DNA from: Cellulomonas wangleii
GTDB lineage: Bacteria > Actinomycetota > Actinomycetes > Actinomycetales > Cellulomonadaceae
Assembly: GCF_018388445.1 (NCBI RefSeq)
Contig: NZ_CP074405.1
Coordinates: 1,488,001 to 1,552,000, forward strand
Direction: 5' to 3'
DNA: 64,000 nt
In this document: in pieces, positions 27,024 through 64,000 of the stretch
How positions within the stretch are numbered: position 1 is the first letter of the stretch
Layout of the letters: every line of letters starts with the position of its first letter
Program-made: the position numbers and the translations under genes
Notes under the pieces: model-generated
Database searches by the model: none
The model's input: only the letters and a program-made list of their open reading frames with translations
What the model was told of the DNA's origin: nothing

Positions 27024-28109
27024 CTAGGCCGGGTCGGGCGCCGTCCCCGCCCCCGGGGCGCCGTCGTGACCAGCCTCACGCCACAGCGCCGCCAGCCGCG
27101 GCAGCGTGCGGGGGTCCGCCTGGGCCAGCACGGTGGTGACAGCCGTGGTGCGCCAGGCGGGCAGCTGGGCCCGGACGTCGTCCTCGGTGCCGACCAGGGC
27201 GATGTCGCGCACCAGCTCGGTGGGCACCGCGGCCGTGGCGCGCGCCCGGTCGCCCGCCAGGTAGTGGGCCTGGATCTCGTCGCACGCCTCGGTGTACCCC
27301 AGGCGGTCGAGCACGTCCCGGTGGAAGTTCGCACCCTTGGCGCCCATGCCGCCGGCGTACAGCGCGATGAAGGGGCGCACCGCGTCGGCCGCCTGCTCGA
27401 CGTCGTCCGCCAGCACGACCGGCACCGTCGCGACGACCTCGAAGTCCTCCGCGGGCCGGCGGGCCGCTGCGCGGCGCGCGAAGCCGTCGGCGAGCAGCTC
27501 GCGGTACGTCGCGTCCATGCGGGGCGAGTAGAACAGGGGTAGCCAGCCGTCGGCGATCTCCGCCGCCATCGCGATGTTGCGCGGTCCCTCGGCGGCCAGG
27601 TGGATCGGCAGGTCGGCGCGCAGCGGGTGGACGGTCGAGCGCAGCGCCTTGCCGAGCCCGGCGCCCTCGTCGGCGGGCAGCGGCAGGCGGTAGAAGTCGC
27701 CGTCGTACGTCACCGGGGCCTCGCGGGCCAGCACCTGGCGCACGACGTCGACGTACTCGCGGGTGCGGGCCAGGGGCCGCGGGTAGGGCTGGCCGTACCA
27801 GCCCTCGACCACCTGCGGCCCGGACGCCCCGAGCCCGAGGACGAACCGCCCGCCGCTGAGGTGGTCGAGCGTGAGCGCCGCCATCGCCGCGGCCGTCGGG
27901 GTGCGCGCGGAGATCTGCGCGATCGCGGTGCCCAGGCGCACGCGGCGGGTGCGGGCGCCCCACCACGCGAGCGGGGTCAGCGCGTCCGAGCCGTACGCCT
28001 CTGCGGTCCACACCGAGTCCAGGCCGAGCTCGTCGGCCGCGGCGACGGCCTGCGCGGCGCCCGGCGGGGGGCCGGCCGACCAGTAGCCCGTGTGGTACCC
28101 GAGGCGCAT
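27024..28109 (-). CDS. LLM-class F420-dependent oxidoreductase
   Basis: A 361-residue TIM-barrel protein of the luciferase-like monooxygenase class, in the subgroup that usually binds F420. Visible are MRLGYHTGYW, DSVWTAEAYGSDALTPLAW, LGTAIAQISARTPTAAAM, FVLGLGASGPQVVEGWYG and LPIHLAAEGPRNIAMA. The substrate is unknown. With the F420 operon and importer cassette elsewhere in the window it is a likely consumer of F420H2. ATG at 28109; open frame upstream of it lacks family similarity. Confidence 0.85.
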   Translation of the reverse strand: MRLGYHTGYWSAGPPPGAAQAVAAADELGLDSVWTAEAYGSDALTPLAWWGARTRRVRLGTAIAQISARTPTAAAMAALTLDHLSGGRFVLGLGASGPQVVEGWYGQPYPRPLARTREYVDVVRQVLAREAPVTYDGDFYRLPLPADEGAGLGKALRSTVHPLRADLPIHLAAEGPRNIAMAAEIADGWLPLFYSPRMDATYRELLADGFARRAAARRPAEDFEVVATVPVVLADDVEQAADAVRPFIALYAGGMGAKGANFHRDVLDRLGYTEACDEIQAHYLAGDRARATAAVPTELVRDIALVGTEDDVRAQLPAWRTTAVTTVLAQADPRTLPRLAALWREAGHDGAPGAGTAPDPA

Positions 28110-51458: not shown

Positions 51459-52088
51459 GTGAGCGCCGTGCCCGCGCGGGTGCGGCCGACGACGCCCGGG
51501 GCGCTGGTCGCGCACGTGGCCGACCTCGCGGCCGCGGTCCCCGGTCGGTGCCGCGTGCTCCTCGACGGGGCCGCGCCGCTGCGCCCGCAGGACCCGGCCG
51601 ACGCGCTCGTCGACGCGCTGCGGGCCGCGGGTCGGCCGGTCGTCCGCGTGCACGCCGACGACTTCCTGCGGCCCGCGTCGCTGCGGTACGAGCACGGCCG
51701 GCAGGACCCGGACGCGTACCTCGAGGACCGGCTGGACGTGGGCGCGCTCGCGCGCGAGGTGCTCGACCCGTTCGCCGCCGACGGCACGTACCTGCCCTCG
51801 TTGTGGGACGCGGTGCGGGACCGCGCCACCCGGGCGGCACGCCGGCAGGCGCCACCGGGGGCCGTGCTCGTCGTGGACGGCGAGCTGCTGCTCGGCAGGT
51901 GGCTCGACGCCGAGCTGACCGTCCACCTCACCGTGCGCCCGGCGACGCTGGCGCGGCGGCTGGGCCCGCAGGACGCCTGGATGCTGCCCGCGTTCGCGCG
52001 GTACGAGCAGGAGGTCGCCCCGCAGGACGTCGCGGACGTGGTGGTGCGGGTGGACGACCCGCGGCACCCGGCACTCGTCGTGCGCTGA
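51459..52088 (+). CDS. uridine kinase-like P-loop protein, atypical
   Basis: A 209-residue protein with the layout of uridine-kinase-like enzymes: RCRVLLDGAAPLRPQDPADAL, VVRVHADDFLRPASLRYEHGRQDPDAYLEDRLDV, and VVDGELLLGRWLDAELTVHLTV. The P-loop position reads LLDGAAPLRP, lacking the GxxGxGK(S/T) consensus, so nucleotide binding may be altered or lost. The HADDF and GxxLL segments that contact nucleoside in related kinases are present. GTG start at 51459 is 87 bases from the divergent sugar dehydrogenase start. Confidence 0.72.
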   Translation: MSAVPARVRPTTPGALVAHVADLAAAVPGRCRVLLDGAAPLRPQDPADALVDALRAAGRPVVRVHADDFLRPASLRYEHGRQDPDAYLEDRLDVGALAREVLDPFAADGTYLPSLWDAVRDRATRAARRQAPPGAVLVVDGELLLGRWLDAELTVHLTVRPATLARRLGPQDAWMLPAFARYEQEVAPQDVADVVVRVDDPRHPALVVR

Positions 52089-52188
52089 GCCCGCTGCGCC
52101 CGCTGAGCCCGTCGTGCACCCCGCGGCGGACCACCGGGTGCGGGCTAGGCTCGACGGCACAGGGGACGAGCACCAGGAGGCGCACCAG

Positions 52189-53190
52189 GTGGCAGGGCTG
52201 ACGATCGGGTACGCGGCGATGCTGGAGCAGTTCCACCCGCGTGAGGCGGTGGAGCTGTCCGCGTACGCCGAGCAGCACGGGTTCTCCGGCGTCATGGCCG
52301 CCGACCACTTCCAGCCGTGGGTGCCCGCGCAGGGGCAGTCCTCGTTCGTCTGGAACGTGCTCACGGCCGTCGGGGAGCGCACGACGGGGGACATGGGCCC
52401 CGGCGTGACGGCGCCGACGTTCCGCTGGCACCCCGCGATGGTCGCGCAGGCGTCGGCGACGCTCGCCGCGATGTACCCCGGCCGGCACTGGCTGGGTCTG
52501 GGCTCCGGCGAGGCGCTGAACGAGCACGTCGTGGCGGGCTACTGGCCCGAGGCGCCCGAGCGCATCAACCGGATGTTCGAGGCGATCGACATCATCAAGA
52601 AGCTCTTCGCGGCCTCGCTGGCGGGCAAGGACGTCAAGCACGCCGGTCCGTTCTACAAGCTCGAGTCGACGCGCCTGTGGACCATGCCCGAGGTCGCCCC
52701 GGAGATCCTCGTCGCCACCGCCGGCCCGGTCACCGCCAAGCGCACCGGGAAGCACGCGGACGGGATCATCACCGTCGGTGCGCCGCTGGAGAAGATCAGC
52801 GGCCTGTTCGGCAAGTTCGCCGAGGGCGCTCGCGAGGCGGGCAAGGACCCGGACGCGATGCCGAAGGTCCTCCAGCTCCACATGTCGTGGGCCGAGACGG
52901 ACGAGCAGGCGCTCGCCAACGCGATGCACGAGTGGCCCAACGGCGGCATGAAGTTCCCCAAGGCCGACATCCGCTCCCCGTTCGACCTCGAGCAGATGGC
53001 CAAGCTGGTGCGTCCCGAGGACTTCGCCGGCCGCATGGTGATCTCCGCCGACCCCGACGTGCACCGCGCCGAGATCCAGAAGTACGTGGACCTCGGGTTC
53101 GACCGCATCTACCTGCACAACGTCGGCCGCAACCAGCGCGAGTGGATCGAGGTCTTCGGTCGCGACGTGCTGCCGAAGCTGTCGCGGTGA
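52189..53190 (+). CDS. F420-dependent glucose-6-phosphate dehydrogenase-family oxidoreductase
   Basis: A 333-residue TIM-barrel LLM protein close to mycobacterial Fgd. The F420 and substrate residues of Fgd are retained in ADHFQPW (Asp, His, Trp) and [10 protein letters not shown] (Glu). [16 protein letters not shown] and [17 protein letters not shown], with the Lys in the phosphate region, also align. It would reduce F420 with glucose-6-phosphate or a related sugar; it could instead be one of the G6PDH-family members of other specificity. GTG at 52189 has AGGAGG upstream and a -10-like TAGGCT at 52146-52151. Overlaps cofE by four bases. Confidence 0.87.
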
Positions 53191-53981
53191 GCGCGGGCGA
53201 GCTGCGCGTCTGGGCGCCCGACGGCGTCCCGGAGGTCGTCCCGGGCGACGACCTCGTCGCGCTGCTCGTGGCGGCGCTGCGCGCCGACGCGGTCGACGAG
53301 CCCGGGCACGCGCTCGCCGACGGTGACGTCGTGGTGGTCACCAGCAAGGTCGTCTCCAAGGCGGAGGGGCGCGTGGTCGCCGCCGACGACCGCGAGCAGG
53401 CCATCACGGACGAGACCCTGCGGGTCGTGGCGACCCGCGAGCACGCCGGGGGCGTCACCCGGATCGTCGAGAACCGGCTCGGCCTGGTGATGGCCGCGGC
53501 GGGCGTCGACGCGTCGAACACGCCGGAGGGCACCGTGCTGCTGCTGCCGGCCGACCCCGACGCGTCGGCCCGGGCGCTGCGGGCCGGGCTGGTCGCGGCG
53601 TTCGGCGTGCGCCTCGGGGTGCTCGTCACCGACACGGCGGGTCGGCCCTGGCGGCAGGGCGTCACGGACCTCGCCATCGGTGCGGCGGGCGTCGACGTGC
53701 TCGACGACCTGCGCGGGCAGCTCGACACGTTCGGCCGGCCGCTGACCATGACCGTCGCGGCCGTCGCCGACGAGATCGCGAGCGCCGCCGAGCTCGTCAA
53801 GGGCAAGGCGTCGGGGCGGCCTGTTGCCGTCGTGCGCGGTGTCGGTCACGTCGTGACCGACGACGACGGGCCGGGTGCGCGCGTGCTGGTGCGCACCGGC
53901 CCGGACGACATGTTCCACCAGGGGTCGGCCGAGGCGTACGCCCAGGGGTGGAAGGACGCGCTCGAGCGGCCGGGACGATGA
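53187..53981 (+). CDS. cofE: coenzyme F420-0:L-glutamate ligase
   Basis: A 264-residue CofE-type ligase that adds the first glutamates to F420-0 using GTP. Conserved parts are [98 protein letters not shown] and [24 protein letters not shown]. It has only the ligase domain, not the FMN-reductase-like half of mycobacterial FbiB. The GTG start overlaps the upstream F420 oxidoreductase stop and its own stop overlaps the next ATG. No cofC, cofD or cofGH is in the window. Confidence 0.92.
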
Positions 53982-54445
53982 CCGGGCCCGTGGCCGACGA
54001 GGTCGTGCTCGTCGTCGACGCCGCGAACGTCGTGGGCTCGCGCCCGGACGGCTGGTGGCGGGACCGCGCCGGCGCGGCGACCCGGCTGCTCGGCCAGCTG
54101 GCGCGGCTCGTCGGGGCGCCCGTCGTGGGCCCTGACGGCGGCCGCCTGCGGGTGGTGCTCGTCGACGTCGTGCTGGAGGGCGGGGCGCGCGGTGCGTCGG
54201 CCCCGGACGTCCCGGGCCTCGTCGTCCACCTCGCACCGCACGACGGTGACACCGAGGTCGTCGAGCGGGCGTCGGCGGCCGGGTCCCGCGCGCTCGTGGT
54301 GACGGCGGACCGGGGCCTGCGCGCGCGGCTGGGCGGCGCGCGCGTCGCCGGGCCGGGGTGGCTGCTGACGCTGCTGGAGGCCGCGGCGGGCCCGGACGAC
54401 GAGGCGGACGGCCGTACCGGGCCTCAGGCGCGTCGGTCCTCGTGA
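53978..54445 (+). CDS. NYN/PIN-like domain protein
   Basis: A 155-residue protein with an NYN (YacP/PIN-like) nuclease fold: [24 protein letters not shown] at the start with the first acidic residue, a [13 protein letters not shown] segment and [15 protein letters not shown] with the last acidic residue. These Asp residues form the metal site of such ribonucleases. Its start overlaps the cofE stop (ATGA), so it belongs to the F420 operon, where no RNase function is obvious. Substrate unknown. Confidence 0.75.
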
Positions 54446-54500
54446 CCTGCACCCGCAGCCCTGCCGCGATCGGACGTGCGCCTCGCGGACCGAGAGGACG

Positions 54501-55799
54501 TCATCCGGACAGGGGCCGGGCCTCGGGGGCCGGCTGCCCGTCCGTGACCGCCGCGCTCGGGGACGCCGTGCTCCGGCCGTACACGAGCCTGCGGTACAGC
54601 CACTCCGCCGGCCCGCGCCGCCCCGCGGCCTCGAGAGCGACCGCGACCGCGACGGTGACGAGCCACACGCCGACGGCCCACGCGACCACCTGCGCCGAGC
54701 CCATGTCCCGTCCGAGCCCTCCGGCCCACGCGGCGAGCGGGAGCACGAAGAGCACCGACTGCAGCAGGTAGCACGTCAGCGACCGGGTGCCGACGGCCCG
54801 CAGCGCGCGGCCGACGGGCCCGAGCATGGCGGTCGTCGTGCCGCGGGCGGCGACGACCCAGCCCACCAGCGCGGCGAACGCGACGCCACCGGCGGCGCCG
54901 GTGACCTCGTGCAGGATCGCCGACCCGATCGCGTCGCCCGTGGACGGGTCGCGCAGCCGCGCGACCGCCGTGGCGAACGGCACGGCACCGACCACGCTGA
55001 CGGCCAGCCCCACGACCGCCGTGCGGCGCAGCAGCCGGACGTGGTCGGCCGGACGCTCGAGGACCGAGCGACGCGCACCCCACATGCCCAGGAGCACGAG
55101 CGGCAGCGCGATGAAGGCGCCCAACGGTGCGCCGAACAGTCCGCTGAGTGCCCGCGTCGCCAGCGCCGCCAGGGGCGACTCCTCGACGGGGATGACGAAC
55201 GGCTCGCCCAGGAAGACCTCCTGGAGCACGATCGCGCCGTTCATCGCGCCACCGACGACCCCGGAGGCGACCAGCACGGTCGCGGACGTGACGAGCAGCG
55301 CGCGGTCGGACGCCCGGACGAACGCCACCGCCAGCAGGCCGGTCAGCCCGTAGGCGCCGAGGATGTCGCCCTCGAACAGCAGCAGGACGTGCGCCACGCC
55401 GAAGGCGACGAGCAGCGCGGCGCGGCGCAGCAGGTCCGCGCGGCACGCGGGCCACGGCACCCACGCGGCCGCCCGGCGGCGCACGACGACACCGATGCCG
55501 TAGCCGTACAGCAGCGCGAACATCGGCATCGTGCGCCGGTCGACGAGGAGCGACACCACGCCGTCGACGGTGCGGTCCAGCGTCGAGGAGTCGACGGGCC
55601 GCAGGCCCAGGCCCACGGCACCGCCTGCGAGGTGCACCACGGCGTTGGCGATCGCGATGCCCAGCAGCGCGAGCCCGCGCGCGACGTCGGGGGCGACGGC
55701 CCGGCTCGCGACCGGGACGGGCCCGACACGGGGGCGGGGCGGCGGCGGGAGCGTCACCGGTGCGGCGTGGGGCAGCACGGCGGGAGGCGGCGTCGTCAT
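54501..55799 (-). CDS. DUF418 membrane protein
   Basis: A 432-residue integral membrane protein with about ten helices and a Pro-rich N-terminus. The opening ARGLALLGIAIANAVVH and the C-terminal GTRSLTCYLLQSVLFVL are typical of DUF418 proteins, which are distantly related to acyltransferase-3 membrane enzymes. No biochemical role is established. It follows the glycosylase gene on the same strand but is separated from it by a strong terminator. Confidence 0.83.
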   Translation of the reverse strand: MTTPPPAVLPHAAPVTLPPPPRPRVGPVPVASRAVAPDVARGLALLGIAIANAVVHLAGGAVGLGLRPVDSSTLDRTVDGVVSLLVDRRTMPMFALLYGYGIGVVVRRRAAAWVPWPACRADLLRRAALLVAFGVAHVLLLFEGDILGAYGLTGLLAVAFVRASDRALLVTSATVLVASGVVGGAMNGAIVLQEVFLGEPFVIPVEESPLAALATRALSGLFGAPLGAFIALPLVLLGMWGARRSVLERPADHVRLLRRTAVVGLAVSVVGAVPFATAVARLRDPSTGDAIGSAILHEVTGAAGGVAFAALVGWVVAARGTTTAMLGPVGRALRAVGTRSLTCYLLQSVLFVLPLAAWAGGLGRDMGSAQVVAWAVGVWLVTVAVAVALEAAGRRGPAEWLYRRLVYGRSTASPSAAVTDGQPAPEARPLSG

Positions 55800-55851
55800 G
55801 GGCTCATCGTCACGTGCCCGTAGGTGCCGGCGCGTCGGTCTCGGGGACGGC

Positions 55852-55881
55852 CCGGGCCTCCGTCGCGCGACGGAGGCCCGG
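55852..55881. terminator. terminator palindrome after the HhH-GPD gene
   Basis: Perfect 30-bp palindrome with arms CCGGGCCTCCGTCGC and GCGACGGAGGCCCGG, 32 bases after the glycosylase stop and 52 bases before the DUF418 start. Confidence 0.78.
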
Positions 55882-55913
55882 CCGGGGGCCCGCCGTCCGG
55901 AAGGGCGGCGAGG

Positions 55914-56489
55914 TCAGCGAGCGGCCTTCGCCGCGGCCTTGGCGGCGCGCTTGGTCTCGCGGACCCTCCCGAGCGACGCGGCGTCGCGGACGTCCGCGAT
56001 CGACCGGAACTCGTCGTCGCCGTACGCACCCGCGGCCTCGCGCCACCCCGCGGGCTGCACGCCGCGCTGCTTGCCCAGCAGTGCGAGGAAGATCCGCGCC
56101 TTCTGGTCACCGAAGCCGGGCAGCGCCTTGAGGCGGCGCAGCACCGTCGGGCCGTCGGGGTCGCCGTCGGTCCAGATGCGCGTCACGTCGCCGTCGTACT
56201 CCTCCACGACGGCCCGCGCGACGGCCTGGATGCGGCCCGCCATGGACCCGGGGTACCGGTGCACCGCGGGCGGCGTCGCGCACAGCGCGGTGAACTCGTC
56301 GGGGTCCGCCTCGGCGATGCGGTGCACGTCCCAGCCGGCCATCCGGTCGGCGATCTTCGCCGGCCCGGCGAACGCGGTCTCCATGGGCACCTGCTGGTCG
56401 AGGAGCATCCCGACGAGCAGCGCGAACGGGTCGTCGTCGAGCAGGCGGTCGGCGGCGGCGTCGCCCGTCATCCAGAGTCTGTCGGCCAT
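55914..56489 (-). CDS. HhH-GPD-type base excision repair protein
   Basis: A 191-residue DNA glycosylase-family protein. DPFALLVGMLLDQQVPMETAFAGP is the conserved opening; the helix-hairpin-helix is LKALPGFGDQKARIFLALLG near residue 120. It lacks the iron-sulfur cysteines of EndoIII/MutY and belongs to a short actinobacterial branch whose substrate is not known. The C-terminus is Lys/Ala-rich, probably DNA-contacting. ATG at 56489; an in-frame GTG at 56504 cannot be excluded. Confidence 0.82.
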   Translation of the reverse strand: MADRLWMTGDAAADRLLDDDPFALLVGMLLDQQVPMETAFAGPAKIADRMAGWDVHRIAEADPDEFTALCATPPAVHRYPGSMAGRIQAVARAVVEEYDGDVTRIWTDGDPDGPTVLRRLKALPGFGDQKARIFLALLGKQRGVQPAGWREAAGAYGDDEFRSIADVRDAASLGRVRETKRAAKAAAKAAR

Positions 56490-56513
56490 GACGCCATTGT
56501 CCACGCAGCGGCC

Positions 56514-57275
56514 TCAGCCGCGGCGGGCGGCGAGCGACAGCATGGTGGGGATGGTCGCGAACCAGCGCTCGTCGTCGGTCCACCCGTGCTCGGGGACACG
56601 GCGGGCGGGGAGCGACGGCGGCTCGTCCAGGTCGACGAGAACCAGGCCGGCGGCACGGAGCTGCTGGACGTACCAGGTGAGCGGCCGGTGGTAGTGGCGG
56701 TGGCCGCCGAACGTGTCGATCCACCGCTCCTCGTGCTCCAGGTAGCCCGTGACGCGCCGGTGCCGCTCGTCGTCGTACACGGGCTGCTGGTGGAAGAACG
56801 CGGGGTGCAGGAGGGTGGCGATCAGCACCCCGTCGTCCGTCAGGAGCGAGGCGACGTCGGCCAGCAGGCGGTCGAGGACCGGCACGTCCATGAGGACCAT
56901 GTGGCTCACCACGGCGTCGAAGGGGCCGGTTGCCCCGTTCGGGACGCCCGCGGTGAGGTCGGCGACCTCGAACCTCAGCGTCGGGTGGTCGGTCCGCGCC
57001 CGTGCCACGAGCTCGGCGCTGCCGTCCACGCCGACGACGTGCGCCCCGCGCTCGGCGAGCAGCCCGGCGAGCCACCCGTGTCCGCAGCCGAGGTCGAGCA
57101 CGTGCGGTCGGCCGGTCGGCAGCCAGCGGTCCAGGAACGGTTCGAACCGCCGCCAGAACGAGTCGTCGGGGCCGCCCACGGTGGCGGCGTAGGCGCGCGC
57201 CGACCGGTCCCACGCCCGGAGGTCGGCGACCGAGCCGTCCGTCGACGCGTCGTCGGTCGGCGTCGGTGGCGTCAT
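56514..57275 (-). CDS. class I SAM-dependent methyltransferase
   Basis: A 253-residue methyltransferase with motif I VLDLGCGHGWLAGLLAERG near residue 60, motif II VVGVDGSAELVARA and motif IV FDAVVSHMVLMDVP. The C-terminal part (HRHYHRPLTWYVQQLRAAGLVLVDLDEP) is shared with small-molecule methyltransferases of this group. Substrate unknown. It precedes the glycosylase gene by 24 bases and may be cotranscribed. Confidence 0.85.
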   Translation of the reverse strand: MTPPTPTDDASTDGSVADLRAWDRSARAYAATVGGPDDSFWRRFEPFLDRWLPTGRPHVLDLGCGHGWLAGLLAERGAHVVGVDGSAELVARARTDHPTLRFEVADLTAGVPNGATGPFDAVVSHMVLMDVPVLDRLLADVASLLTDDGVLIATLLHPAFFHQQPVYDDERHRRVTGYLEHEERWIDTFGGHRHYHRPLTWYVQQLRAAGLVLVDLDEPPSLPARRVPEHGWTDDERWFATIPTMLSLAARRG

Positions 57276-57373
57276 GAGCCCATCGTGGCGGGCGTGGTCA
57301 CGCGGGCGCGAGACCGGCTCGCCGTCCGGTTCCGGACGAACCGGACATCGGCCCGTCCGCCCGGGCCGGGCGC

Positions 57374-57658
57374 GTGGCCGGCACGGTCGTGACCGGTCAG
57401 GTGACGCTCGCCTTGCACCTGCCGCGCGGCACGACGACCGTCGGGCGCGGGCCGCACAGCGACCGGCGGCTCACCGACCCGATCGTCTCCACGACGCACG
57501 CCCGCGTCGTGCCGGTGCACCCGGCGTGGACGGTGGGGGAGCTGCGGGACCGGTTCGTCGACGTCGACGGCGTGCCCGCGCGGCAGGGTGGTCGCACCGT
57601 CCCGGGCGCTCAGCCGGGTCGGACCAGCTCCGCGAAGACGACCACGTTCGCCTCGTAG
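57374..57658 (+). pseudogene. degenerate FHA-like fragment
   Basis: The open frame of 94 residues contains TTVGRGPHSDRRL.DPIVSTTHARV, which fits the phosphothreonine-binding core of an FHA domain (GR..., S..HA), and a later VDVDGVPARQGGRTV that looks like the end of such a domain. The DLGSTNG-type turn expected between them is missing, and the frame runs into the 3' end of the sortase gene on the other strand. It is probably a decayed remnant or an incidental open frame. The rest of the 334-bp gap (57276-57609) shows nothing else. Confidence 0.3.
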
Positions 57659-58242
57659 TGCCGGACGGCCCGGTCCCACTCGCCGCCGCAGGTGATGAGG
57701 CGGAGCCCGGCGTGGTCGATGTCGCCGTAGACCGCGTCCGTCGGGAAATGGTCCTTCGGGTGCTCCTCGACAGCCGTGACCTGGAACACCGGGACCGTTC
57801 CGTCCGTGCGGGTGACCCGGATCTCGTCCCCCGCGGCGAGGTTCGCGAGCTCGTAGAACACCCCGGGGCCGGAGGCCCAGTCGACATGGCCGGCGATGAC
57901 CGCGGGCCCGAGCTCACCGGGTGTCGGCGCGCCGTCGTACCACCCGGCGGGGAAGCCTGCCGGGGGAACCTCCAGGGTGCCGTCGTCCTGCAGGCCCAGC
58001 CTCATCAGCTCGGAGTCGACGCCGATCGCGGGGATCTGCAGGCGCACGGGGGCGGAGGCCGCCATCCTGACCGGCCCGGCCGTCCGGGCCGGAGCCGTCG
58101 CGGGCACCGCGGTGACCGCCGGGGCCGTCGCGGGGGTGGCCGGGTCAGGGGCCTTCGGCGCCGCGGCCGGCGCGGAGCTGCACGCGGCGGTCGTCAGGAC
58201 GAGTGCGACCGCCCAGGCGATCGCACCCGTCCGTCCCGTCAC
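57610..58242 (-). CDS. class F-type sortase
   Basis: A 210-residue extracellular cysteine transpeptidase. The catalytic triad is visible: His in VIAGHVDW near residue 118, Cys in LRLITCGGEW near 185 and Arg in DRAVRHYEANVVVFAEL. The single-domain core with LQIPAIGVDSELM at its start matches actinobacterial class F sortases. The N-terminus is hydrophobic and ends TTAAC, a lipobox-like site, so it may be a lipoprotein rather than a simple signal-anchor protein. The GTG start overlaps the stop of the DUF3494 gene upstream, suggesting that protein is its substrate. Confidence 0.87.
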   Translation of the reverse strand: MTGRTGAIAWAVALVLTTAACSSAPAAAPKAPDPATPATAPAVTAVPATAPARTAGPVRMAASAPVRLQIPAIGVDSELMRLGLQDDGTLEVPPAGFPAGWYDGAPTPGELGPAVIAGHVDWASGPGVFYELANLAAGDEIRVTRTDGTVPVFQVTAVEEHPKDHFPTDAVYGDIDHAGLRLITCGGEWDRAVRHYEANVVVFAELVRPG

Positions 58243-59351
58243 GCGGCGGGCAGCCGACGACGGGCACGCAGTCCGGCCGCCCCGGCGACGACGGCACCGC
58301 CGAGCAGTGCGGCGCCGTGGAGAGCGTTCCCGGTCGACCCGGCGTCGATGCTGCTGCCGTCGCCGGTCGCGACACCCCCGATCGGCACACGGCCGACCTG
58401 CGGGGAGGAGGCTGCGTCCTCACCCGATCCCGCGCCGGGCCCGTCGCCCGATCCCGCGCCGGGGTCGTCGCCCGATCCCGCGTCGGGGCCGTCGCCGGAA
58501 CCTGCGTCGGGAGCGGTGGTCTGGTCGCCACCCGGGACGGGGGCGGTGCTCGGGCCGGGTGTCGCACCGGGCGTCGGAGAGGCGCTCGTGCTCGTGCTCG
58601 GCGAGGCGCTCGGGCTCGGCGACGTGCACAGCGGACGGGTGATGGTGTTGGAGTCCAGCGTGACCGCGCCGTTGCGGGCGAGGACCCGGCCGTCGACCGT
58701 CGCCCCGGTGGTGAGCGTGATGGAGGTCAGCGCCAGGATCGTGCCGGTGAAAGCGCTCCGGACGCCGAGCGTCGCAGAGCTGCCCACCTGCCAGTAGACG
58801 TTGCAGGCCTGGGCGCCACCGATCAGCTCGACCGCGCTGTCCGTCGCGGTGATCAGCGTCGACGGCGTCTGGAAGACGAACACCGCGTTCGGGTCGCCCT
58901 CGCCGTCCAGCGTCAGGGTGCCCGTGATCCCCAGCTCGCCGCCCGAGGAGTACACCCCCGACGTCAGCGTCAGCCCACCGAGCTCGACGGGTGCCGCGAG
59001 CACGGGACCCTGCCCCGCGGCGTCGTCGTACGCGGTCACGAGGTCACTCTTGGCCCGCTCCGCGACCTCGTCCGCGGCGTGGGTCGCCCCGGTCTGCGTG
59101 ATCGAGCCCGCCCCGGAGATGGCCGGCGTGGGGAACGTGCCGATTTCACCCGCAACCGTGGTGGGTCCGGTGTTCGTGATGCCGGAACCGGCGAGGATCG
59201 CGAAGCTCCCGGCCGTGGCGAGCGGCACCGGGACGGCCGCGGCCTGGGCGTTCGACGCCAGGGCGACGACGACAGCGACGGTCGCGGCGACCGCTGCCAG
59301 TGCCGCTGTGCGGGGGTGTGCGTGGGTATGCCCACGGGTTGTCGCCTTCAT
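58239..59351 (-). CDS. DUF3494 (ice-binding-like) surface protein
   Basis: A 370-residue secreted protein. After a ~38-residue signal region (ending NAQA) comes a DUF3494 beta-solenoid domain of about 200 residues: ATAGSFAILAGSGITNTGPTTVAGEIG, DDAAGQGP, LTLTSGVYSSGGELGITGTLTLDG and ITLTTGATVDGRVLARNGAVTLDSN. A Ser/Pro/Thr then Gly/Asp-rich linker follows, a VPIGGVATGDGSS stretch, a hydrophobic helix and a basic tail (RARRR). That end looks like a cell-wall sorting signal without a classic LPXTG. DUF3494 domains bind ice or act as adhesins. ATG preceded by GGAGG. Confidence 0.87.
   Translation of the reverse strand: MKATTRGHTHAHPRTAALAAVAATVAVVVALASNAQAAAVPVPLATAGSFAILAGSGITNTGPTTVAGEIGTFPTPAISGAGSITQTGATHAADEVAERAKSDLVTAYDDAAGQGPVLAAPVELGGLTLTSGVYSSGGELGITGTLTLDGEGDPNAVFVFQTPSTLITATDSAVELIGGAQACNVYWQVGSSATLGVRSAFTGTILALTSITLTTGATVDGRVLARNGAVTLDSNTITRPLCTSPSPSASPSTSTSASPTPGATPGPSTAPVPGGDQTTAPDAGSGDGPDAGSGDDPGAGSGDGPGAGSGEDAASSPQVGRVPIGGVATGDGSSIDAGSTGNALHGAALLGGAVVAGAAGLRARRRLPAA
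58423..58518. repeat. 24-bp tandem repeat in the DUF3494 linker
   Basis: Four 24-base units (58423-58446, 58447-58470, 58471-58494, 58495-58518) encode an eight-residue repeat close to AGSGDGPD/AGSGDDPG. The last unit (in + orientation) is the most diverged. It forms a flexible, acidic wall-spanning linker and is a likely site of length variation. Confidence 0.75.
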
Positions 59352-59403
59352 GCCTGTGCCTCCGAGGATTGGGGGCGGTCCACCTCGACCGCCACCGGAT
59401 TCG

Positions 59404-59433
59404 ACCCTATGTGCTGGCAGTGAGCCGCTGGCA
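59404..59433 (-). promoter_or_regulatory. DUF3494-sortase promoter region with direct repeat
   Basis: A -10-like TAGGGT on the minus strand (plus 59404-59409) and, just upstream, two direct copies of GCTGGCA (59413-59419 and 59427-59433) spaced 14 bases apart at the -35 region. Such spacing suits an activator dimer; the protein is unknown. Confidence 0.33.
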
Positions 59434-59481
59434 AGCAAGGTCGCGATCCCGGCGCGGGGAGCACGTCGTGGAGCGCGGGTC

Positions 59482-60302
<821 letters not shown>

Positions 60303-60312
<10 letters not shown>

Positions 60313-61400
60313 GTGCCACCCCGTCCCCGCCGCAGCAGCACCGCGAACACGGGTACGCCGATGAGCGCGGTCACGATCCCCACGGGCAGCTCGCGCGGGT
60401 CGAACACCGTGCGCGCCAGGGTGTCCGCCCAGACCAGCAGGACCGCACCGGCCAGGCCCGCGACGGGCAGCAGCCGGCGGTGCGAGGGGCCCGTCACCAC
60501 CGACACCGCGTGCGGCAGCACCAGGCCGACGAACCCGATGGCGCCCGACACCGCGACCATCGCCCCCGTGAGCACGGCGACGAGCGTCATCATCGCCCAC
60601 CGGGTGCGCTCCACGGCCACGCCCAGCGCGGCGGCCGCGGTGTCGCCGAAGGTGAACGCGTCGAGCCGTCCCGCCGTGACCAGCACGACCGTGCCGACCA
60701 CGACCAGCGCACCGCCGGCGATCGCGACCGACGACCACGTGGCCCCCGCCAGCGACCCCATGAGCCACGAGAGGATCTCGCGGTACGAGTCACCGGTGGC
60801 GGTCCAGAAGATGACGAACGACGTCGCCGCGGCCGCGAGCTGGGAGATCGCCAGACCGGCGAGGACGGCGCGCGTCGGGGTGAGCGTGCCGCCCGTGCGG
60901 GCCAGCGTGAGCGTCGCGACCAGCGCCGCCAGCGCCCCGACGAACGCCGCGACCGGCAGCAGCAGCCCTACGCCCAGCACCAGCACCGCCACGGCGCCCA
61001 GCGACGCCCCCGACGAGAGCCCCAGCAGGTACGGGTCCGCCAGCGGGTTGCGCGTCATCGACTGCATCACCGCCCCGGCGACCGCCAGGCCCGCGCCGAC
61101 GGCGGCCGCCGTGAGGACCCGCGGCAGGCGCAGGTCCCAGACGATCGCATCGTGCAGGCGCGGCACGTCGGGCGCGCGCAGTCCCAGGTGCGCGAGCACC
61201 GAGCGGACCACCTCGCCCACAGCGACGTCCGCGGGGCCGATGGTCACGGCGACCAGCAGCGTCACGACCAGCGCCGCCGACCCCACGGCGACGAGCAGCG
61301 CCAGCGGTGGGCGCAGCGGGGCCCGCCCGGTGGCGTCGCCCGCGAGCAGAGGGCCGGCGGGCGGCTCGCTGCGCGGGGGACGGAGGCGTCGGTTCAGCAT
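60303..61400 (-). CDS. proposed F420-0 ABC importer, permease
   Basis: A 365-residue FecCD/BtuC-type permease with about nine to ten helices after a 30-residue Arg/Pro-rich N-terminus. RLPRVLTAAAVGAGLAVAGAVMQSMTRNPLADPYLLGLSSGASLGA is the family hallmark and SGAIGFVGLVLPHAV the coupling region. It lies nine bases after the binding-protein gene and overlaps the ATPase gene, forming a tight three-gene cassette. Confidence 0.85.
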
Positions 61401-61409
61401 CGGTGCAGG

Positions 61410-62519
61410 TCAGCCCTCGCTCGTGGCGGCCGGCGTGCCGGCGTCGAGCGCCCGCACCGCGTCCGCGATGTCGGAGGCGGCCCGGGCGTTGCGCACGCCG
61501 GCCTCGGACGCGGCGAACGGGACCACGACGTACCGCTGCTCGCGCACCGCGGTGAGCTGGGAGGCCGCCGGGTGCGCCGCGAGGAAGTCCCTCTTCTTCT
61601 GCGCGGAGTTCCACGCGGAGTCCACGAGCACCAGCACGTCCGGGTCCGCCGCCACGACCTGCTCCCAGCCGACCGACGTCCAGGTGTCGTCGACGTCCGC
61701 GAACACGTTGGTGAGCCCCGCGGTCTCCAGCAGCATCTGCGGTGCACCGATCCCGGCGCCCACGAAGGGCGTGTCCGTGCCGGACGACCACCACACCGCG
61801 GTGGCGCCGTCCACCGGCTCGATCGCGTCGAGCGTCGCCTGCTGCGCGGCGACGACCTCCCGCGCGGCCTCGGGGACCCCGAACACCTCACCGACCTCGC
61901 GGATCTCGCCCAGGACGTCGTCGAACGTCAGCGGGTCCGGCTGGTACGCGGGGTCCTTGCACGCGCTGGGCGACACGTACGTCGCGATGCCCAGCGCGTC
62001 GAGCGTCGAGCGCTCGCCCGCGCCGTCCGCGCTGAGGTTGGACTCCCAGCCGGCGTAGACCAGGTCGGGCTCGGCCTCGAGCAGGGCCTCCTGGCCGGGC
62101 ACCTTGTCCGAGAGGACCGGGACGTCGGCGACGTCCGCGGCCCACTGCTCCGGGACGGGCCCGTCGGCGAACGCGGTGCCGACCAGCGCGTCGGCCAGGC
62201 CGAGCGCCAGCATCATCTCGGTCGTCGACGACTTGATGGTCACGACGCGCTGCGGCGGGGCGTCGAACGTGACCTCGGTCCCGCAGTTGTCCAGGGTGAC
62301 GGGGGCGTACGTCGTGGGCACGTCCGACGGGGTCGCCGAGGGTGCCGCGGCCGGGGCGCCCGTGGAGCACGCGGCGAGGGCGAGCGCGCCGACGGCGACG
62401 CCGGTGACGAGCACGGCGCGGGGCACGCGTCGCGGGGACGTCGTGCGGGTGGGGGAGTCGCCGGCGCGGCGGGCAGCGCTGCGCGGGACGGGTACGAGGT
62501 GACGACGGGCGCGGGGCAT
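61410..62519 (-). CDS. proposed F420-0 ABC importer, substrate-binding lipoprotein
   Basis: A 369-residue BtuF/FecB-type binding lipoprotein. A basic N-terminal extension precedes the signal helix and lipobox LAAC (Cys51). The mature part contains LDNCGTEVTFDAPPQRVVTIKSS, GLADALVGTAFADGPVPEQW, VYAGWESNLSADGAGERSTL, GAGIGAPQMLLETAGLTNVFADVDDTW and VDSAWNSA. From memory these follow the small actinobacterial family proposed (TIGRFAM reasoning from co-occurrence with F420 enzymes) to bind F420-0. The alternatives are cobalamin, heme or a siderophore; no B12 riboswitch or iron box is seen upstream. ATG at 62519 follows GGAG. Confidence 0.8.
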   Translation of the reverse strand: MPRARRHLVPVPRSAARRAGDSPTRTTSPRRVPRAVLVTGVAVGALALAACSTGAPAAAPSATPSDVPTTYAPVTLDNCGTEVTFDAPPQRVVTIKSSTTEMMLALGLADALVGTAFADGPVPEQWAADVADVPVLSDKVPGQEALLEAEPDLVYAGWESNLSADGAGERSTLDALGIATYVSPSACKDPAYQPDPLTFDDVLGEIREVGEVFGVPEAAREVVAAQQATLDAIEPVDGATAVWWSSGTDTPFVGAGIGAPQMLLETAGLTNVFADVDDTWTSVGWEQVVAADPDVLVLVDSAWNSAQKKRDFLAAHPAASQLTAVREQRYVVVPFAASEAGVRNARAASDIADAVRALDAGTPAATSEG

Positions 62520-62622
62520 GGTCTCTCCGGGAGGTCGCTGCCGCGCACGCCGTCGGGCACGGGAGGGAGGGGGACGGGCGCACGTCGCGCCGCGGAGGAC
62601 CGTCCCAGCACGGGGCGGTGCG

Positions 62623-62646
62623 ACCCGACCAGAGCGACGGTCGGGT
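62623..62646 (-). promoter_or_regulatory. stem-loop in the importer 5' leader
   Basis: ACCCGACC/GGTCGGGT, a perfect 8-bp stem with an 8-base loop, near the 5' end of a predicted leader of about 130 bases. Possible cis-regulatory RNA; no known riboswitch motif recognised. Confidence 0.42.
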
Positions 62647-62657
62647 TCCGACGGGCA

Positions 62658-62663
62658 AGCCTA
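62658..62663 (-). promoter_or_regulatory. -10 element of the F420-0 importer operon
   Basis: TAGGCT on the minus strand; start expected near 62651. A TTGCGC lies 19 bases upstream as a weak -35. This gives an unusually long leader for this window. Confidence 0.4.
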
Positions 62664-62713
62664 GGCGCTCCGGCCGCCACCCGCGCAACCGCCCCCGCAA
62701 CCGTGCGCCCACG

Positions 62714-62755
62714 CCACGAGCGGTGTGCGTGACGTGTCACGCACACCGCTCGTGG
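62714..62755. terminator. 42-bp perfect palindrome, terminator of the CBM2 esterase gene
   Basis: 20-bp arms (62714-62733 and 62736-62755) with a GT centre; the arm begins CCACGAGCGGTGTGCG. It lies 28 bases after the esterase stop and upstream of the importer promoter, insulating the two. Confidence 0.8.
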
Positions 62756-62783
62756 TCGGCTCGCGCCGGTGGCTCGCGGGAGG

Positions 62784-64000
62784 TCAGGCGGCCGAGCAGG
62801 TCACCCGTGCGCCCGCACCGTTCCCGGTGCCCTGGAAGCCGAACGTCGTGCTCCCGCCGGCGTCGACCCGCCCGTTCCAGGGGGCGTTCGTCACCGTGAA
62901 CGCCGACCCGCCGGTCGACTGGCCGTTCCACACCTGCGTCGCGCCGGCCCCCGTGGCGAGGGTGACGGTGACGCGCCACCCCGTGACCGGGGCGCTGCCG
63001 GCCGTCACCGTGACGTCCGCGACGAACCCGCCGGGCCAGCTGTTGGCGAGCCGGTAGGTCGCGGTGCAGCCGGTGCCGGTACCCGGGGTGGGGGTCACGG
63101 AGGGCGTCACCGACGGTGTGGGGGTCACCGAGGGTGTCACCGACGGCGTGGGCGTGACCGACGGCGTGACCGACGGGGTCACCGAGGGCGTCACCGAGGG
63201 CGTGGGCCCCGGTCCGGCGTCCCCCCACGCGTCCTTCAGGAACGCGGCGATGGTGTCCCAGCTCGGGTTCGGGGTGCCCTGCGTGACGGTCTCCCGGCAG
63301 CCCTCGACCGTGCGGACGGTCTGCTGCCCGTAGCGCGAGGCGCTCGTGACGTCGGTGTGGCTGTGGCCGGCGCCGGGCACGGAGAAGAACCGGGTGTCGA
63401 CGCACGCGGCCTTGAGCGCGTCGTAGAGGATCTGGGTCTGCGCGTGGGGCACCACGTTGTCGCTGAGCCCGTGCAGCAGGAGCATCGGGGGGTCCTGCGC
63501 GTCGACGTACGCCAGGGGGTTGGCCTGCTGCGCCTTGTCGCGGCAGGTGGGGATCGCGCAGCCCAGGAGCTGGGCCTCCGGGGCGCTCGGGCTGTCGTGG
63601 TCGATGAAGCCGCCGGGGTCCTGCTCCCTGAGCCGCTGGAAGTCGGTGGGCCCGAAGAAGTCGACGCCCGCCTGCACGGCGCTCGAGACGCCGTAGAGGC
63701 CGACCTGCCCCTCGAGCGACTCGACACCGCCGGTCAGCGCAGCCATCGCGGCCACCCAGCCGCCCGAGGAGTCGCCCATGGAGGCGAAGCGGTCCGGGTC
63801 CAGGCGGTACCGGTCGGCGTAGGCGCGCAGGTACCGGATCGCGGCCTTGACGTCGTGCACCTGGGCCGGGAACTTCGCCTGCGAGCTGGACCGCACGCTG
63901 ACCCCGGCCACCGCGATGCCGCGGGGGTTCAGCTGCTGGGCGATGGCCGCCGCACCGGACTTGCCGTCGTCGGACGTCCACGCCGACCCGGTGGACCACA
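62784..64000 (-). CDS. secreted alpha/beta-hydrolase esterase with CBM2 module, 5' end missing
   Basis: At least 405 residues; the frame stays open to the window edge (WSTGSAWTSDDGKSG before the hydrolase core), so the signal peptide lies outside. The esterase domain has the nucleophile in GDSSGGWVAAMAA, the acid in LHGLSDNVVP and the His in GAGHSH. A CAIPTCRD segment may be disulfide-bonded. A ~40-residue repetitive TPSV linker joins a C-terminal CBM2: CTATYRLANSWPGGFVADVTV, VTGWRVTVTL, WNGQSTG and GFQGTGNG, ending C-S-A-A. CBM2 binds crystalline cellulose or xylan, so the enzyme probably deacylates hemicellulose (acetyl or feruloyl groups). Confidence 0.88.
   Translation of the reverse strand, partial: WSTGSAWTSDDGKSGAAAIAQQLNPRGIAVAGVSVRSSSQAKFPAQVHDVKAAIRYLRAYADRYRLDPDRFASMGDSSGGWVAAMAALTGGVESLEGQVGLYGVSSAVQAGVDFFGPTDFQRLREQDPGGFIDHDSPSAPEAQLLGCAIPTCRDKAQQANPLAYVDAQDPPMLLLHGLSDNVVPHAQTQILYDALKAACVDTRFFSVPGAGHSHTDVTSASRYGQQTVRTVEGCRETVTQGTPNPSWDTIAAFLKDAWGDAGPGPTPSVTPSVTPSVTPSVTPTPSVTPSVTPTPSVTPSVTPTPGTGTGCTATYRLANSWPGGFVADVTVTAGSAPVTGWRVTVTLATGAGATQVWNGQSTGGSAFTVTNAPWNGRVDAGGSTTFGFQGTGNGAGARVTCSAA
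63087..63206. repeat. 12-bp tandem repeat encoding the TPSV linker
   Basis: About ten degenerate 12-base units related to GTCACCGAGGGC (plus strand) encode Thr-Pro-Ser-Val/Thr-Pro repeats joining the esterase domain to CBM2. Purely a protein linker repeat; likely variable in length between strains. Confidence 0.85.

Follow-up and report, generated by a model that had tools for sequence, protein, structure and literature searches.

Uptake of F420-0 by an ATP-binding cassette (ABC) importer was proposed from genomes that carry cofE and F420-class enzymes and lack the genes for FO and F420-0 synthesis. The hypothesis of such an importer is not new; it is the name of the NCBIfam families TIGR03868, TIGR03869 and TIGR03873, and public records use it for such proteins as well. 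Here, we analyzed a 64-kb stretch of the Cellulomonas wangleii genome (contig NZ_CP074405.1, positions 1,488,001 to 1,552,000; in the following called the window), in which a three-gene cassette of this kind lies close to cofE and to a gene for a luciferase-like monooxygenase (LLM) class oxidoreductase. An earlier note on this DNA interpreted the locus as F420-0 uptake followed by trapping through CofE, and judged from gene content this is still the most likely interpretation. The importer would take up F420-0 from the surroundings, CofE would add the glutamate tail and thereby trap the imported cofactor, and the LLM enzyme would be the likely F420-reducing step. The interpretation is built on the gene families and their overlaps, the lack of those genes for FO and F420-0 synthesis that were searched for, and a clustering that recurs in relatives, all read from sequence. 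We consider it probable that F420-0 is a true substrate of the importer, with or without FO.

The cassette, cofE and the F420-named enzymes of the genome

The cassette proteins were compared with the curated NCBIfam models, as the earlier note had proposed, and all three exceeded their cut-offs. The binding lipoprotein scored 492 bits against TIGR03868 (cut-off 392), the permease 533 bits against TIGR03869 (cut-off 437) and the ATPase 385 bits against TIGR03873 (cut-off 372). By these profiles, the cassette belongs to the putative F420-0 ABC transporter family. The present locus does not differ from that family: the cassette is the same, cofE is nearby and no searched upstream pathway gene is in the genome. 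The nearest named binding-protein loci were from Cellulomonas avistercoris and Cellulomonas sp. KH9 (84-88% identity). In contrast, the cassette did not reach the equivalog models of the vitamin B12 importer BtuFCD (BtuF, 36.6 vs 234 bits; BtuC, 247.6 vs 461 bits). A crystal structure, 4mlz, a periplasmic binding protein of Jonesia denitrificans, was linked to the cassette binding protein. Its title names no ligand, and no mention of 4MLZ was found in the literature searched.

The genome is a single contig of 4,076,825 bases with a completeness of 100, and its nearest relatives place it in Cellulomonas. The earlier note had named a complete F420 pathway elsewhere in the genome as the result that would refute its reading. 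Such a pathway was looked for throughout the genome. There was no match for cofC and no candidate for cofH/fbiC (no separate search was made for cofG), and no protein exceeded the cofD cut-off. The sole weak cofD match (21 bits) was yvcK, placed between rapZ and whiA by our reading of L003. The window also held no remnants of cofC or cofD (best E 0.15). With cofE, F420-class enzymes and none of the searched genes cofC, cofD and cofH/fbiC, the genome shows the pattern on which the importer proposal was based.

The assignment of cofE was confirmed by TIGR01916 (226 bits, cut-off 180.65) and NF009810 (307 bits, cut-off 304); PF01996 was also matched, and the CofE structures 2phn and 7uld gave 122 bits. 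CofE proteins encoded near cassettes are short, with about 249-318 residues in all 54 measured. In a small set of nine contrast loci chosen by us, the CofE proteins of eight had about 350-448 residues. At the ninth (L155, genome G249), CofE has about 266 residues and is encoded roughly 11 kb from a split binding-protein match. Two further CofE variants were observed. At L149:4715-6660 (G086), a CofE of the long type (387 aa) overlaps with a CofD-like protein that is degenerate: it scored 83 bits to TIGR01819 (cut-off 257) and lacks the SGGVGGARF stretch seen in the L102 CofD. Neither an FbiC match nor an over-cut-off binding protein was found in this genome, and the pair may be a relic or belong to a different pathway. 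Similar weak CofD-like matches were seen in G058, G072, G100 and G196. At L154:4054-5388 (G001), CofE is apparently fused to a C-terminal cupin domain of the mannose-6-phosphate isomerase type.

The earlier note had called the LLM protein an F420 oxidoreductase of the glucose-6-phosphate dehydrogenase (G6PDH) family. This held for the broad family model TIGR03557 (279 bits, cut-off 210). It did not hold for TIGR03554, the equivalog of F420-dependent glucose-6-phosphate dehydrogenase (FGD; 229.5 vs 420 bits), and the top-scoring model was another one, considered with the alternatives below. Like FGD and its Thermomicrobium roseum counterpart Fgd, the protein keeps the DHF.PW and GEALNE stretches, and it scored 221 bits against the FGD structure 5lxe. 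Lys198, which we take to be one of three phosphate-binding residues of FGD, is not kept in the alignment. Chain 9hav and the LLM protein agree at 186 of 323 aligned pairs (58% identity). 9hav and three sister entries together hold 54 chains, and T. roseum Fgd was described with 54 independent monomers in PMC12750041, which states no Protein Data Bank code in the part available. We therefore take 9hav to be T. roseum Fgd. If so, the LLM gene is likely to encode the F420-reducing step, and its product is likely a sugar-phosphate dehydrogenase similar to T. roseum Fgd.

Ten proteins of the genome exceeded the cut-offs of F420-named families, seven of the LLM and three of the PPOX type, names that are assigned by profile and not by assay. 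The seven LLM proteins (the window LLM, L028, L030, L032, L034, L035 and L041) were found among 15 Bac_luciferase proteins; L036 was left out of the count, as it reaches TIGR03557 and also the flavin mononucleotide (FMN)-type TIGR03885. TIGR03618 was reached by three of seven PNPOx proteins. F420:NADP oxidoreductase was considered as an electron source and rejected: TIGR01915 was reached in three of 278 genomes, the present one not among them. All three have the importer binding protein, over cut-off in G170 and G084 and near it in G206.

Carriers across the order

Co-occurrence was determined in 278 genomes of the order using curated cut-offs. These were exceeded by the binding protein in 66 genomes (the carriers), by CofE in 137, by CofD in 104 and by CofH in 29. 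For co-occurrence, CofE was counted in 169 genomes (182 with any match minus 13 weak ones), and FbiC-like proteins comprised over-cut-off FbiC plus 24 divergent matches of 190-345 bits. On this basis, cofE was present in 65 of the 66 carriers, the exception (G194) being a 69%-complete draft. No carrier had an over-cut-off FbiC, and one (G197) had a divergent one. With relatedness ignored, Fisher p values were 1e-15 for CofE and 3e-6 against FbiC-like proteins.

The carriers fall into two classes. Neither cofC nor cofD was found in 30, including the present genome, and both were found in 36. CofC accompanied CofD in all 36 (35 over cut-off, G088 just under), and no CofC match of comparable strength was seen in the other 30. 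The transporter family is thus broader than the cofE-only genomes on which the earlier note saw the proposal resting. All five sampled genus mates (G060, G130, G158, G220 and G253) have cofC and cofD. No trace of either gene was seen in the stretches around the cassette in Cellulomonas sp. KH9 and in C. composti (L005, L006). It is likely that cofC and cofD were lost in the present lineage.

Gene neighbourhoods were inspected for 70 carriers (65 over and 5 near cut-off), extending at most about 10 kb to either side, with some cut by contig ends. CofE was encoded in 54 and the LLM gene in 49 of them. The proximity of the two clusters pointed out in the earlier note is therefore not a matter of chance, as it recurs in 54 of 70 sampled relatives. 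CofD and CofC were each encoded in 21 of 37 neighbourhoods of the cofC/cofD class and in none of the 33 of the other class. cofD lay upstream of the binding protein in three of the 37, and cofC, cofE and the LLM gene were mostly convergent to the cassette.

FbiC-like proteins were missing in 53 of the 104 cofD-carrying genomes, and 18 of these 53 had no over-cut-off binding protein (a split match in G249, a near one in G277). These 18 non-carriers encode CofC, CofD and CofE without an FbiC-like protein (e.g. the single-contig genomes G001 and G213) and are predicted from gene content to be FO auxotrophs. A further distribution was seen in genus g38 of family f19. There, the importer occurs in G097, which lacks an FbiC match, and a divergent FbiC occurs in G069, G083, G167, G205 and G270, none of which has an over-cut-off importer. 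This genus offers a close set for studying replacement.

The probable ligand and its alternatives

When 71 binding proteins (66 over and 5 near cut-off) were placed on a tree, the two classes required 11 label changes, at least six of them forced by starred branches. The classes interleave, thus there is no class-specific clade. Signature positions were defined as at least 95% constant in 69 binding proteins (G062 and G277 were dropped as most divergent) and shared by no more than a quarter of 12 related binding proteins, which scored 157-228 bits against the family model. This resulted in 24 positions: K96, S97, D119, G120, G157-S160, V182, A186, P194, G210, A219, L230, W243, S245-G247, G254, V299, W303, F335, E339 and G341. 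In an AlphaFold2 model of the binding protein (31 sequences; mean predicted local distance difference test score, pLDDT, 84), 15 of the 24 lie at a predicted strand end or at most four residues after it by hand count. In binding-protein folds of this kind, strand ends form the ligand site. We infer from the model that these residues may lie in the ligand pocket. A class-specific binding site was looked for and rejected, as no signature position occurs among the ten columns listed with the strongest class bias. The first three of these (312, 308 and 139) are variable. The bias is clearest at position 301, with A in 29 of 36 and S in 30 of 33, and may be a lineage effect.

Because the sites are shared and descent is mixed, one ligand should serve both classes. 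Imported FO could not be converted to F420 in the 30 carriers that have neither cofC nor cofD, and import of FO only was rejected as the primary reading on this ground. A cofE-only strain can extend F420-0 and not FO; of the two compounds, F420-0 is therefore the only one that would serve both classes. According to the available part of PMC8498797, FO diffuses through membranes and F420-0 is stopped by its charge.

Several points weigh against F420-0 as the ligand. The TIGR names are themselves hypothetical ('hypoth_equivalog'), and we found no demonstrated ligand for the family in the literature. The co-occurrence is uncorrected for relatedness, and there is little overlap between the families of the carriers and those of the FbiC-like genomes (nine each by hand count, with f1 and f19 in common). 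CofE occurs without CofD or an over-cut-off binding protein in 37 of 278 genomes (four, G062, G206, G212 and G234, have a near-cut-off binding protein and 33 have none), so cofE alone is no proof of F420 use. The 36 carriers with cofC and cofD count on the same side. In 15 of the 37 neighbourhoods of that class, cofD is the next searched gene 3' of the ATPase gene and co-directional with it, which also fits FO import; moreover, 35 of the 36 have no FbiC-like protein and would need FO from outside. Both facts suit an importer that takes deazaflavins generally, with cofC/cofD strains using FO and F420-0 and the present type F420-0 only. This reading overlaps with F420-0 import. It is possible, and we regard it as doubtful, since FO reportedly passes through membranes without help (PMC8498797, in the part available) and 18 of the 53 cofD-positive, FbiC-like-negative genomes do without an over-cut-off binding protein; FO salvage thus seems independent of the cassette. 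Equally tentative is the idea that F420 is shared goods in the order and that the carriers form a two-tier guild, one tier using FO and F420-0 and the other, to which the present strain would belong, F420-0 alone; the common binding site of their one importer would then accept FO as well.

Import of short-tailed F420-n, with CofE just lengthening the tail, appears unlikely. Cellular F420 has a glutamate tail, which CofE-type enzymes begin as well as lengthen (PMC8498797, in the part available); F420-0 explains the pairing with cofE more directly, and the present data do not separate the two. About as improbable is an unrelated ligand (siderophore, heme or corrinoid) whose importer stays near cofE by inheritance. 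The fold is common to heme, siderophore and B12 binders, which appear among the other fold matches and count against F420-0. The model of EitA-type siderophore binders (NF052484) was the second-best NCBIfam model of the binding protein, at 124 bits and a cut-off of 640. Opposed to this are the 65 of 66 carriers with cofE and the one of 66 with an FbiC-like protein, the recurring cluster, and the 24 signature residues, which are replaced in most of the 12 related binding proteins. The one of these that was scanned (L158) scored 195 bits for EitA and 228 for TIGR03868, both under cut-off. For a corrinoid, a B12 riboswitch at gathering threshold was also missing from the window. Finally, the LLM and PPOX enzymes might use FMN and cofE might be a relic. 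The top model of the LLM protein is the FMN-type TIGR03885 ('flavin_revert'; 304 bits, under the cut-off of 399), a further point against F420 use, and other genomes contain cofE without the cassette, cofD or an FbiC-like protein. We consider this explanation very improbable in view of the identity of the LLM protein to 9hav, the open cofE frame that overlaps the LLM gene, and the recurrence of both genes beside the cassette in other families.

Locus layout and significance

The coordinates are given in the table below. The tight operon described in the earlier note was confirmed by successive four-base overlaps, of the LLM stop with the cofE start (GTGA) and of cofE with the small open reading frame (ORF). 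The note had named this ORF an NYN protein; no Pfam or NCBIfam family was found for it at E<=0.001, and a homologue was seen in L005 only (94 loci, many ending before cofE). The coordinates of the cassette were likewise confirmed, its genes being adjacent and co-directional with a gap of 9 bp between lipoprotein and permease genes.

Genes of the two clusters in the window
Feature	Position	Strand	Remarks
LLM-class F420 oxidoreductase (likely)	52189-53190	+	GTG start, AGGAGG upstream
cofE, F420-0:L-glutamate ligase, single-domain form	53187-53981	+	TIGR01916, NF009810, PF01996
Small ORF 3' of cofE	53978-54445	+	Overlaps cofE stop as ATGA
Putative F420-0 importer ATP-binding protein	59482-60312	-	TIGR03873; GTG start overlaps permease end
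Putative F420-0 importer permease, BtuC/FecCD type	60303-61400	-	TIGR03869, PF01032
Putative F420-0 importer substrate-binding lipoprotein	61410-62519	-	TIGR03868; LAAC lipobox in sequence

The clusters are convergent and 5 kb apart. Between them lie genes for a DUF418 protein, an HhH-GPD repair protein, a methyltransferase, a class F sortase and an ice-binding-like protein. The HhH-GPD gene (TIGR03252; 55914-56504, minus strand) was seen close to the cassette in 14 of the 70 neighbourhoods and also in many named Cellulomonadaceae loci, and is probably a cassette neighbour by descent. A second F420-named LLM gene is located at 27135-28067 on the minus strand (TIGR03559, 478 bits), and a further one (TIGR03842, 590 bits) about 4 kb past the end of the window. 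No consensus promoter or terminator sites were found within 51900-63000. The window contained no riboswitch at gathering threshold, two tRNAs being the sole matches with gathering scores.

The earlier note stated that F420-0 uptake is not known to have been shown experimentally, and in line with this, no published test was found in the literature by titles and abstracts. The available parts of PMC8498797, PMC11841060, PMC8407117, PMC12855090, PMC12750041 and PMC10658910 describe none. The present analysis adds the test in a single-contig genome, the 278-genome profile, the shared signature and the link to 4mlz; the two-class structure of the carriers is also added, without established priority. 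As the genome is a single contig, the gene set is compact and a structure (4mlz) already exists, the question is testable with one purified protein. If the interpretation is true, this would to our knowledge be the first demonstrated deazaflavin importer. For the opposite direction, a deazaflavin exporter is only suggested in the available part of PMC8498797. The same review uses F420 biosynthesis genes to list predicted users of the cofactor. If the importer works as interpreted here, 66 of the 278 sampled genomes of the order, about a quarter, would belong to organisms that receive all or much of their F420 from neighbours, and counts of biosynthesis genes would miss these organisms.

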